From: Thermoplasmatales archaeon
GTDB lineage: Archaea; Thermoplasmatota; Thermoplasmata; Thermoplasmatales; Thermoplasmataceae
Direction: 5' to 3'
NCBI GenBank assembly: GCA_014874365.1
Contig: JACWAH010000024.1
Coordinates: 1 to 64,000 of the forward strand
DNA: 64,000 nt
Position numbers and translations under genes: made by a program. Under the pieces are notes generated by a model. The model was not told the DNA's origin. It searched no databases and saw nothing but the letters and a program-made list of their open reading frames with translations. Of the stretch, positions 10,956-39,410 are shown one piece after another (position 1 is the stretch's first letter; each line of letters opens with the position of its first letter).

Positions 10956-11372
10956 ATGACTTCAATTCATAAACCTAAACTGGGCAGGAACGAAAAAAGG
11001 TTGCTTAAGAAGAAACTGGCCCTGGCGAGAGCAAGGCCACTGTTCAGGAGACAGGAGTGGTTCAGGTACGTAAAACTTGGTGATTCCTGGAGAAAACCAA
11101 GGGGCAAACATTCGAAACAGAGGGAACAGCAGGCGAGAAGAGGGCCAATAGTCGATGCAGGTTTCAGGGGACCAGTTGCGGTAAGGGGACTGCACCCATC
11201 AGGGTTCAAGGAAAAACTGGTATTCAATCTCAACGATCTTTCAAATCTTGACAGCGGAAGAGAAGCTGCAAGGATTTCATCAAAAGTCGGAGCAAGGAAA
11301 AAGGAACTGATCGAGGAGAAAGCTGAGGAACTCGGGATAAGGGTCCTGAATCCAGCAGGTGAGAAGGAATGA
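10956..11372 (+). CDS. rpl32e: 50S ribosomal protein L32e (eL32)
   Basis: 138 residues. The family block FRRQEWFRYVKLGDSWRKP (about residues 28-46) and RGLHPSGFKE are clear, followed by a conserved C-terminal domain. Found in archaea and eukaryotes only. Its ATG lies one base after the L6 stop, and it overlaps L19e by four bases. Confidence 0.96.
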   Translation: MTSIHKPKLGRNEKRLLKKKLALARARPLFRRQEWFRYVKLGDSWRKPRGKHSKQREQQARRGPIVDAGFRGPVAVRGLHPSGFKEKLVFNLNDLSNLDSGREAARISSKVGARKKELIEEKAEELGIRVLNPAGEKE

Positions 11373-11830
11373 GGATAGATACAGCAAAGAGGATCTCTGC
11401 CGATATCATGAAAGTGGGAGAGACCAGGGTATGGATGGATCAGAACAGCGTTTCCGAGATAATGGACGCTGCCACACGTTCGGATATCAAGGTCCTCATG
11501 AGAAGGCACGTCATTCAGGAGATTCCCAAGAAGGGAAATTCCGGTTACAGGTTCAGGAAAAAACTGAAGCAGATATCAAAGGGAAGAAGACGCGGACCTG
11601 GATCGGTAAGAGGTACCAGAAATGCAAGGTCAAATTCAAAGCAGGCATGGGTAAAAACCATCCGGGCATTGAGAAACGAGCTGGTTACCCTGAAGGATCA
11701 GGAAAAGATCGATAAAGTCACCTACAGGAAATATTACAGGATTACGAAGGGAGGTTCAATTCGGTCAAGGGCCCAGTTGAATACGCAGATTAAGGCAGCA
11801 GGCTTGCTGAAGAAAGGGCGGAAACGATGA
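11369..11830 (+). CDS. rpl19e: 50S ribosomal protein L19e (eL19)
   Basis: 153 residues, typical for archaeal L19e. It has RISADIMKVGETRVWMD, the glycine/basic GRRRGPGSVRGTRNAR block (about residues 73-88), and a long C-terminal helix. It forms intersubunit bridges. A second open frame in the same DNA (11359-11715) is a shadow. Overlaps L18 by four bases. Confidence 0.96.
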   Translation: MRIDTAKRISADIMKVGETRVWMDQNSVSEIMDAATRSDIKVLMRRHVIQEIPKKGNSGYRFRKKLKQISKGRRRGPGSVRGTRNARSNSKQAWVKTIRALRNELVTLKDQEKIDKVTYRKYYRITKGGSIRSRAQLNTQIKAAGLLKKGRKR

Positions 11831-16888: not shown

Positions 16889-17449
16889 TTGTCAAGGATA
16901 ACAATCAGCGGCACAATTGGCAGCGGGAAGTCAAGCACCGGCAAGGCCCTTGCTGCAAAACTTGGCTATGAATTCCTGTCTGGCGGACAGATTTTCCGGA
17001 AACAGGCTCGCGATCTCGGAATGACTCTTGAAGCGTTTGAAAAAAAGGCAGAACTGGATCCGGTTTTTGACAGAAAACAGAATGACGTTCTGGTTGAATA
17101 CCTGAAGAAAAACGATGACACAGTCATGGAGTCGAGGCTCAGTGCCTTCCTTGCAATCCAGTCCGGAATAGATTGCTTCAGGGTCTTTCTTGACGCGGAC
17201 GAGGATACAAGGATCACCCGATTTTCAGGTAGAGAACACATTGGCCTGGAAGAAAGCAGGTCCATGATACGGGAACGGGAGAAATCCGACTCTGAGAGGT
17301 TCATGGATTTCTTCGGGGTGGATCACAGAGACCCCCAACTATATAACGTGATAATAGATACAACTCGTCTTAGCGTGAAGGAGGCTGCAGAACAGATTTA
17401 TGAAAGATTCCGGGCCTGGAAGCCCAATGAACGGATTTCTGGTAATTGA
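16889..17449 (+). CDS. cmk: Cytidylate kinase (archaeal type)
   Basis: 186 residues from TTG 16889, two bases after the upstream stop. P-loop GTIGSGKSS at residues 7-15, then LSGGQIFRKQARDLGM and the C-terminal YNVIIDTTRLS pattern of archaeal CMP kinases. It phosphorylates CMP/dCMP. In many euryarchaea L34e precedes and L14e follows this gene; both are absent here. Its end overlaps cbf5 by 23 bases. Confidence 0.93.
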   Translation: MSRITISGTIGSGKSSTGKALAAKLGYEFLSGGQIFRKQARDLGMTLEAFEKKAELDPVFDRKQNDVLVEYLKKNDDTVMESRLSAFLAIQSGIDCFRVFLDADEDTRITRFSGREHIGLEESRSMIREREKSDSERFMDFFGVDHRDPQLYNVIIDTTRLSVKEAAEQIYERFRAWKPNERISGN

Positions 17450-18488
17450 CAAGCCGAAGGGCCCGAGTTCTCACCAGATCGATTTTTGGATAAAGGAGAT
17501 GATTCCCGGCACAAAGGTTGGCCATATTGGAACCCTCGATCCAATGGCAACTGGAGTTTTAGTGATGGCCATGGGGAAGGCCGTAAAGCTCATAGACGTG
17601 GCACATGAGTTTCCCAAAGAATACGTTGGAACTATGTTGCTGCACGGGAACGCTACTGATGAAGATCTGAAAGAGGCATTCCGGAAGTTCACTGGCCCAG
17701 TGTATCAGCTTCCACCATTAAGATCTGCAGTTGCCAGGAAGGTGAGGATCAGGACAATATACTCACTGGAAATTATAGAAAGAAAGGCAAAAACAGTACT
17801 CTTCAGGGTCAGGTGTGAATCGGGGACTTACGTCCGGACGCTTTGCACAGACATTGGTTCTTATCTTGGCCAGGGCGCCCAGCTTATCGATTTAAGGAGA
17901 ACGCTTACAGGGGACTTTTCAGAGTCACAACTGGTAACAATGCAGGAGATCGAAATTGCGGCTGAAATGTTCAAGAATGGATTGAAGGAAAAGCTCGAGA
18001 AAATGATTATCCCTCTGGAATTCCTTTTCAGGGGTACACCCAAGATTGTCGTTAAAGATTCCGCAATATCAAACATTTCCAGGGGTTCAGATCTTTTCCC
18101 CGGCGGAATAAGGGCGATTACTGGCAATCCTGCCAAGGGAGAAAGAGTCCTGGCAGTTTCCGAAAACAACGAGATATTAGGGACAGGTAAAATGCTCGTT
18201 TCATTATCGGAAATTTCAGATCTCAAGGTCGTAGACTTCGACAGAATCCTTATCGAACAGATACCGTTGAGGGAAAAGCGAGATGAAAGAAAGGATAACG
18301 TGGTATGGAAAGGAAGTGGGCGGAAAGAAGTTCCTGTTCAAAGGAATGAAAGAAGACCCGGTACAGGTGCTTTCAGAACTGAGAAATGGAAAGATCCAGG
18401 AACTGGAAGAGATGCAGGACCAGGATATTCCAGACCTGAGGGAAATCGCCCTCCTTTTCGCAAGAAGAAGGATAGGAGAAGAGTTTAA
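17427..18488 (+). CDS. tRNA/rRNA pseudouridine synthase Cbf5 (TruB family)
   Basis: 353 residues from the ATG at 17427. The catalytic motif GTLDPMATG puts the nucleophilic aspartate at residue 38; GTYVRTLCTDIG follows, then a PUA domain at about 215-285. It is the H/ACA guide-RNP enzyme and can also make tRNA Psi55. From about residue 286 a basic, Gly/Pro/Arg-rich tail ending in KKKDRRR is read from the same DNA as the start of nop5 in another frame (206-base overlap). The tail is not part of the usual fold. Confidence 0.94.
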   Translation: MNGFLVIDKPKGPSSHQIDFWIKEMIPGTKVGHIGTLDPMATGVLVMAMGKAVKLIDVAHEFPKEYVGTMLLHGNATDEDLKEAFRKFTGPVYQLPPLRSAVARKVRIRTIYSLEIIERKAKTVLFRVRCESGTYVRTLCTDIGSYLGQGAQLIDLRRTLTGDFSESQLVTMQEIEIAAEMFKNGLKEKLEKMIIPLEFLFRGTPKIVVKDSAISNISRGSDLFPGGIRAITGNPAKGERVLAVSENNEILGTGKMLVSLSEISDLKVVDFDRILIEQIPLREKRDERKDNVVWKGSGRKEVPVQRNERRPGTGAFRTEKWKDPGTGRDAGPGYSRPEGNRPPFRKKKDRRRV

Positions 18489-19077
18489 CAGGGAACAGTA
18501 CCTGATAAGGATACACTCTTTTAAAACAGAACTTGACAGGATAATCAACCTCTATTATGAGCAGATTCTACCGTTTGGAAACATTGTAATCGATGAAGTC
18601 CACAGAAAGGATCCGTGTTCGGCCTTCCAGATTAAGTCAGAGGATCCGTTGATTGCTGACATTTTAATGAAAGGACAGCAATTATGCCAGCTAAGGACTG
18701 CCATAAGGGAGAAAATGGAATCCGAGATAAGATCTATCATGCCTAATTCCATTGCCATAGCCGGACCAGATATCTGTCTTGACATGATTTCATCCTCCAG
18801 GTCGCTGAAGAAACTGGCTGAGTTGCCATCTGGCGCAATACAGGTCATGGGGGCCGAGAAGGCACTGTTCAAGCACAAGTCAGAAGGAACGCCTTCACCC
18901 AAACATGGAATCATATACAAATATCCAGGAATATCGTCCATAGGGAAGGTAAAGAGAGGCAGGGTCTGCAGGCTCATTGCATCGAGGCTTTCTTTCGCAT
19001 TCAGGGCTGATTATTTTGGCAGGACACTTGATGTCGAAAAAATAAAGAAGGAAATAGCAGAAAAAATGGCTCAATAG
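18283..19077 (+). CDS. Nop5/Nop56/Nop58 C/D-box RNP core protein
   Basis: 264 residues. The Nop domain is clear: PNSIAIAGPDICLDMISSS (about 149-167), then VMGAEKALFKH and GIIYKYPGISSIGKVKRG. Before it is a coiled-coil-like helix pair. The N-terminal fibrillarin-binding domain is short; archaeal Nop5 is often 350-400 residues. It scaffolds C/D guide RNPs with L7Ae and fibrillarin; fibrillarin, usually adjacent, is not in this window. The frame is closed by a TGA just before ATG 18283, so the start is there or at ATG 18346. Either way it overlaps cbf5 heavily. Confidence 0.92.
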   Translation: MKERITWYGKEVGGKKFLFKGMKEDPVQVLSELRNGKIQELEEMQDQDIPDLREIALLFARRRIGEEFNREQYLIRIHSFKTELDRIINLYYEQILPFGNIVIDEVHRKDPCSAFQIKSEDPLIADILMKGQQLCQLRTAIREKMESEIRSIMPNSIAIAGPDICLDMISSSRSLKKLAELPSGAIQVMGAEKALFKHKSEGTPSPKHGIIYKYPGISSIGKVKRGRVCRLIASRLSFAFRADYFGRTLDVEKIKKEIAEKMAQ

Positions 19078-38204: not shown

Positions 38205-39410
38205 ATGAGCGAGGCCGAAGATCCTCAGCGGAAGGTAACTTTCCGCTTACTCATTTTATCCAGGTCCCTGAGGAGCGTTGGAGTGATTTATGTTGTTCTT
38301 TCGCTCCCTCTTTATCTATTGAATTTTACAAACATCGTAACAATAGGTATCCTTTTTTCCATATCGGGGATTTCCACACTGCTGATCTCGTTATTTTCTG
38401 GACTCATGGGGGACAGAATTGGATACAAGAAAGTACTCATGCTTGTGGAAATACCCTCCATAATTTCAATGGTTGTGCTTGCCCTGTCGAGCAATACGCT
38501 GTTGATATTCATTGCAGTGGCAGTAGGAGGAACAGCTGGAACCCCGGGAGCAATGCGAGGGGCTTTTTCTCCCGGAGTAACTGCATACATTGCAACTCTC
38601 TGGAAAGAACGGGAGGAACGCGTAGATAAACTCTCACTGTTTACGGCTGTAGGCTCATTTTCTGCAATTGCCGGATCATTATTGTTGATAGCTAAGGGCT
38701 ACTTATTTAATGGGTTCAGTCCCGTCTATTCATACAGGATTCTTTATGGATTTTCCGCAATTATGATTCTTGTCTCCCTGCTAATGCTTTCAATGATGTT
38801 AACCGATCACCCGGTAAAAAGGCAGGTAAGGGTCATGAGGAAGAGCAGCTGGACTTACACTCTCAAGGTATCTGCTGGAAACCTGATGAACGGTATGGGT
38901 CTCGGATTGGCAATAGCCCTGCTGCCTGCCTGGTTACACTTAAGGTTCGATACATCTTCCACCACAATAGGCGAACTTTTCACCGCATCATACTTTTTTA
39001 CGGGAATTGCGTCTTTGCTTGCATCAAGTCGTTCAAATGTTGGGAGGGAAAGGCATGTCCTCATTGGAGGAATCACCAGGAGCGTTCAGGGAATATTGCT
39101 GATAGTCATTGCATTCCTTCCATCAATACTTTTCGTGGCAATAATTTATTCCATGAGGTCTATGGTGGCTGGATTCGGCGCGCCCATAAGAACCGCGGTT
39201 AACGTTGGAGGGATTTCAGAAGGGGATTACGGTTCCGCATCAAGCATCCAGGGTGTTTCCATGCGGGCCGGGCAGAGCACCTCAGCGATTTCAGGATACC
39301 TGATGTCCTACGATACTCTCCTGCCTTTGGTAGGAGGCGGATTGATACAGGGTCTTGGAGGGCTGGTGTATTACCTTATCCTGAAGTCCAGGAAATCAGT
39401 GGATGGATGA
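38205..39410 (+). CDS. MFS transporter
   Basis: 401 residues with about 12 membrane segments. The motif between helices 2 and 3 is GDRIGYKKVL, the MFS signature. It starts four bases after the aminopeptidase stop, so likely in one transcript; uptake or export of amino acids or peptides is a guess from that. Its end overlaps the converging metG stop by 15 bases. Confidence 0.85.
   Translation: MSEAEDPQRKVTFRLLILSRSLRSVGVIYVVLSLPLYLLNFTNIVTIGILFSISGISTLLISLFSGLMGDRIGYKKVLMLVEIPSIISMVVLALSSNTLLIFIAVAVGGTAGTPGAMRGAFSPGVTAYIATLWKEREERVDKLSLFTAVGSFSAIAGSLLLIAKGYLFNGFSPVYSYRILYGFSAIMILVSLLMLSMMLTDHPVKRQVRVMRKSSWTYTLKVSAGNLMNGMGLGLAIALLPAWLHLRFDTSSTTIGELFTASYFFTGIASLLASSRSNVGRERHVLIGGITRSVQGILLIVIAFLPSILFVAIIYSMRSMVAGFGAPIRTAVNVGGISEGDYGSASSIQGVSMRAGQSTSAISGYLMSYDTLLPLVGGGLIQGLGGLVYYLILKSRKSVDG

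Follow-up and report, generated by a model that had tools for sequence, protein, structure and literature searches.

The window analysed here, a stretch of 64,000 nucleotides from a Thermoplasmatales archaeon, carries on its forward strand two adjacent genes for protein components of guide-RNA ribonucleoproteins (RNPs). The upstream gene, cbf5 (17427..18488, + strand), encodes the H/ACA pseudouridine synthase, 353 amino acids from ATG 17427 to the stop codon TAA at 18486-18488. The open reading frame (ORF) extends back to ATG 17400, but ATG 17427 is the better start; the preceding cytidylate kinase gene (16889..17449) is overlapped by 23 nt from the latter codon and by 50 nt from the former. 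The protein exceeds the equivalog cut-offs of NF003280 (351.2 bits, cut-off 242) and TIGR00425 (284.4 bits, cut-off 238.15) and possesses the catalytic GTLDP motif with its aspartate, whose residues G35 to P39 are invariant in 17 family members. A PUA domain (PF01472, E 2e-12) occupies residues 205-273 of 353, counted from 17427 (18039..18245, + strand). It is followed by a basic tail of 75 residues (18261..18485, + strand) which, as a comparison with the tails of relatives and the ends of outgroup proteins indicates, stands in place of the outgroup YPxxWK end. At the opposite terminus, Cbf5 of this family begins about 23-31 positions into the family model, and most of the N-terminal DKCLD region is missing (17427-17480 in the window, and in family alignments); the proteins of outgroup families f4 and f5 are likewise shortened. 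In known Cbf5 structures, this N-terminal region packs on the PUA domain.

The downstream gene, nop5 (18283..19077, + strand), encodes the core protein of C/D RNPs with 264 amino acids. Its Nop domain is recognized by PF01798 (E 4e-27; 95.7 bits versus 25.4), and both an alignment with relatives and solved Nop5 chains support the assignment. Against NF011121, the equivalog model of full-length aNOP56, the protein scores 121 bits (cut-off 452), and it represents a short form. The conserved WYG motif, residues 7-9 (18301..18309, + strand), lies within the DNA shared with cbf5, and W7 and G9 are invariant in an alignment of 20 Nop5 proteins. A mispredicted start can therefore be rejected: initiation at ATG 18346 would remove both invariant residues, and ATG 18283 is, judged from the sequence, the best nop5 start. 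The first-pass annotation had placed a TGA directly before this codon; the in-frame stop that closes the nop5 frame is instead TGA 18268-18270 (+ strand), 12 nt upstream of the ATG. A weak Shine-Dalgarno-like site, GAGG (18269..18272, + strand), lies before nop5 and inside cbf5. Such sites precede nop5 in many genomes and in most of the genera with the overlap, and relatives have stronger ones, GGAGG in Thermoplasma and GGTGAT in genus g26 being examples; the window has only GAGG.

As the first-pass annotation had noted from the ORF coordinates, which are borne out here, the two genes share 206 nt in two frames. In this dual-coding overlap (18283..18488, + strand), the codon grid of nop5 runs one base after that of cbf5, so that Cbf5 codon positions 1, 2 and 3 correspond to Nop5 positions 3, 1 and 2. 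Among 43 co-directional gene pairs in the window, cbf5-nop5 is the only one with an overlap of at least 60 nt.

The family to which the window belongs comprises acid-loving archaea. Whole-genome searches for cbf5 and nop5 found both genes in 77 family genomes, in nearly all of which they adjoin, and the pair was measured in 69. A long overlap of about 180-250 nt, always in the same phase, is present in 42 genomes of 12 genera, including those that we take to be Thermoplasma acidophilum, T. volcanium and Ferroplasma acidiphilum. In the other 27 genomes, which belong to six genera (g3, g7, g12, g13, g14 and g16), the genes share no more than about 50 nt or simply abut; the genome that is presumably Cuniculiplasma divulgatum lacks the long overlap. 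The Cbf5 stop codon falls at Nop5 codons 65-75 in 11 of the 12 overlap genera; Thermoplasma has it at codon 75 or 89. Since the overlap occurs in 12 genera and in single-contig genomes, the sequencing frameshift that the first-pass annotation had considered as a trivial explanation for the long tail is excluded; nor does Cbf5 of any relative within the family stop soon after the PUA domain, as it had also considered.

The tail itself is more widespread than the overlap. A basic tail with few hydrophobic residues ends Cbf5 in all 69 family genomes examined, with genus means of 27-38% lysine plus arginine and 7-15% aspartate plus glutamate, and with lengths of 21-108 residues (65-108 in the overlap genera) or, in g3, about 280. 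The g3 tails (loci L092, L095 and L096) have a very high content of Arg, Lys, Gly, Ser and Asn, come close to the enzyme itself in length, and are encoded upstream of nop5. None of 15 Cbf5 proteins from five other families of the order has a basic tail; most of these outgroup proteins end in YPxxWK or a close variant, and in outgroup family f4 cbf5 is followed by nop5 without a long overlap. Hence, the tail is a trait of the family, whereas the overlap is not. The N-terminal part of Nop5 encoded by the overlapped DNA is conserved in genomes with and without the overlap.

How selection acts on the Cbf5 frame was assessed with a null model in which the Nop5 protein is held fixed and synonymous codons are redrawn with the codon usage of the genus, over about 60 codons. 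The 42 overlap genomes contain no stop in the Cbf5 frame, versus 2.5-6.1 expected; because these genomes were sorted by openness, the zero holds partly by definition, and the weight of the result lies in the per-genome P values (0.0001-0.055) recurring in distant genera. For the 27 non-overlap genomes, the 1-9 stops present are at the level that the same resampling predicts (3.4-8.1). The Cbf5 frame carries a net charge of +8 to +16, compared with null means of about +2 to +9; this excess is clear in most genera and not significant under the same null in Thermoplasma, g24 and g26. Synonymous constraint within the overlap, which the first-pass annotation had proposed to compute, turns out strongly positive: in 11 independent within-genus pairs, nop5 differs at 64 of 370 synonymous sites inside the overlap (17%) versus 582 of 1380 outside it (42%; p 5e-20). 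For eight control pairs without the overlap, the corresponding values are 122 of 280 (43%) and 408 of 1011 (40%; p 0.34).

The nop5-synonymous changes that did occur lead mostly to R/G swaps in Cbf5. Six of them result in an acidic residue or a stop, versus about 19 expected (p 1e-4), and with stops left out, 6 acidic outcomes stand against 12.9 expected (p 0.018). A preference for conservative replacements in the Cbf5 tail, scored by BLOSUM, is not significant (p 0.19). Taken together with the R/G swaps and the avoidance of acidic residues and stops, this indicates that what is preserved is the composition, as a disordered basic tail would lead one to expect. The avoidance of stops, the avoidance of acidic residues and the synonymous constraint on nop5 show the Cbf5 frame to be under purifying selection as a protein, and we regard dual coding under selection as nearly certain. 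The overprinted basic tail, born from a frame already under selection, that the first-pass annotation had suggested is thus supported by its presence in 12 genera and by the synonymous constraint.

The overlap could be seen as a functionless accident, a neutral read-through extension at the 3' end of cbf5 of the kind classed as misannotation in an earlier survey (PMC2478687). In a single genome, this would not look unreasonable: the Cbf5-type phase stays open for 180 nt or more in 5 of the window's 71 main ORFs, and an open run of such length after a gene start is unremarkable there. Yet the extension is conserved in 12 genera, and its neutrality is contradicted by a synonymous constraint on nop5 that is restricted to the overlap genera; conservation and constraint across genera put the overlap far beyond chance, and we give an accidental origin hardly any credence. 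Having been measured on nucleotides, the constraint might alternatively reflect an mRNA structure or a regulatory element instead of a protein. However, the overlap has no match in Rfam and its fold z-score is only -1.2, and the constraint coincides with the avoidance of stops and with amino-acid class in the Cbf5 frame, and the non-overlap clades lack it; an RNA element was rejected as very improbable.

A further alternative concerns the order of events. It is conceivable that the tail first arose on DNA of its own and that the overlap formed later, several times, by deletion of intergenic DNA. Six genera indeed have basic tails without the overlap, and in a smaller tree of Cbf5 and Nop5, which is less decisive, the non-overlap clade of g3 and g13 is basal. 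A larger tree, built from the ribosomal-protein/secY/adk/cmk operon together with cbf5 and nop5 (3952 columns; supports of 63-99 at the backbone nodes), instead nests both non-overlap clades among overlap lineages with supports of 89-100. Parsimony requires two changes if the overlap was present at the family root and four if it was absent. The nearly uniform position of the Cbf5 stop and the identical phase everywhere likewise speak against repeated formation, to which we assign a minor share of the probability. The most parsimonious reading is an ancestral overlap and its loss in two clades (six genera), in which the tail was retained on DNA of its own. In a last alternative, coordinated translation of the two RNP proteins would be what maintains the overlap, and the Cbf5 tail would be a tolerated by-product; the adjacency of the genes, which throughout the family overlap or abut with few exceptions, would agree with it. 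But the tail is retained in clades without the long overlap, its open frame and composition are under selection, and Cbf5 (H/ACA) and Nop5 (C/D) belong to different RNPs. Moreover, with its start about 200 nt ahead of the cbf5 stop, nop5 cannot be served by termination-reinitiation there. As a reason for the overlap, the coupled translation that the first-pass annotation had mentioned therefore finds no support, and we consider this explanation improbable.

The explanation that best accounts for the data as a whole, and the one in which we place considerable confidence, is a true same-strand dual-coding region that arose by 3' extension of cbf5. In the ancestor of the family, cbf5 would have lost its canonical YPxxWK end and stop codon, and its frame would then have continued, one base ahead of that of nop5, through roughly the first 65-75 codons of this neighbouring gene, resulting in a basic and probably disordered Cbf5 tail. 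Selection since then would have prevented stops in the Cbf5 frame and maintained its richness in Arg, Lys, Gly and Asn and its scarcity of acidic residues, with the N-terminal part of Nop5 still encoded in the other frame. Two clades would later have shifted the tail to DNA of its own; as they kept it, selection needs the tail and not the overlap. An ancestral origin by overprinting is the reading we favour. Birth by this route, already suggested by the first-pass annotation, fits the placement at the root by parsimony and the outgroups, which have neither the tail nor a long overlap. As for the exit from the overlap, a tandem duplication of the start of nop5 was considered; by eye, the non-overlap tails are unlike the overlapped ones.

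A ribosome translating cbf5 would meet no stop before 18486. With no stop ahead of the tail in its frame, any in-frame translation of cbf5 must also yield the tail, and we infer from the sequence that it is made. Translation of nop5 probably starts at an internal ribosome site of its own within the region that encodes the Cbf5 tail. Regarding function, the PUA domain binds the ACA end of the guide RNA (PMC7991803), and electrostatic RNA binding is the likeliest role of a basic tail that follows this domain. The tail would bind guide RNA or rRNA beside the PUA domain and thereby aid RNP assembly or pseudouridylation; its composition and the analogy with other tails make RNA binding somewhat more plausible than its opposite. 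In yeast, removal of the Lys-rich Cbf5 tail affects rRNA pseudouridylation (PMC11528048). The archaeal tail would most likely be similar to this eukaryotic one in what it does. The idea that the tail substitutes for a missing Gar1 was rejected, given that Gar1 matches (mostly weak) and Nop10 were found across the family. The full scenario, in which an RNA-binding tail was born by overprinting at the family root, was held in at least 12 genera and was twice released onto its own DNA, has in our judgement slightly better than even prospects.

Overlapping genes as such are known, but long co-directional overlaps between well-characterised prokaryotic genes had been judged unreal: in a manual survey of 715 prokaryotic co-directional overlaps longer than 60 bp, none was considered real, all being attributed to misannotation, and the longest accepted overlap measured 56 bp (PMC2478687). 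Like cbf5-nop5, the known conserved same-strand overlaps of 32-56 bp join two unrelated conserved genes, C-terminus over N-terminus, across genera. The present case differs in its length of about 180-250 nt, in its measured synonymous constraint and in the loss of the overlap from sister clades. Its likely origin, by stop loss and read-through into the next gene, is shared with long unidirectional overlaps in which the upstream gene was extended at its 3' end (PMC3887535); most of those reported are not conserved, whereas that of cbf5-nop5 is family-wide and its extension is under selection. The short overlaps (4 nt and similar) that couple genes of heteromeric complexes in archaea and bacteria are also co-directional, and the phase of cbf5-nop5 (206 mod 3 = 2) is the dominant one among the longer overlaps of that study; cbf5-nop5 is about fifty times longer than the coupling overlaps, and reinitiation at the upstream stop is impossible (PMC10666635). 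The eukaryotic proteins Cbf5, Nop56 and Nop58 carry Lys-rich (KKE/D) C-terminal tails, which are likewise charged and of low complexity and in Cbf5 lie beyond the PUA domain (PMC11528048). Unlike these, the tail of the archaeal family has no KKE/D repeats and few acidic residues, is rich in Arg, Gly and Asn, and overlaps another gene. Because the outgroup archaeal Cbf5 proteins examined have no tail, its origin is independent of the eukaryotic one. This indicates that a charged tail evolved separately in eukaryotes and in some archaeal Cbf5 proteins, a point relevant to the roles of such tails in RNA-modifying RNPs.

The literature found within the library searched does not mention the cbf5-nop5 overlap. 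Set against a survey that found none real, it links two core RNP genes over about 200 nt, is conserved, and shows strong evidence of selection. It would be deleted by annotation rules under which long overlaps are trimmed or flagged. The two escaped clades serve as internal controls, so that the origin, the cost and the resolution of dual coding become directly testable; if the interpretation is true, the locus represents a natural experiment on how overlapping genes are born and decoupled in cellular life.

Elsewhere in the window, the gene at 38205-39410 has no stop in the Cbf5-type phase over its first 423 nt, more than any other of the 71 main ORFs, and a gene of the ribosomal-protein operon (11369-11830) has 345 nt open in the same alternative phase. 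One family genome contains a second Nop-domain match (G085:C99:14579-14989), which resembles those of another family of the order and possibly stems from contamination of the assembly.
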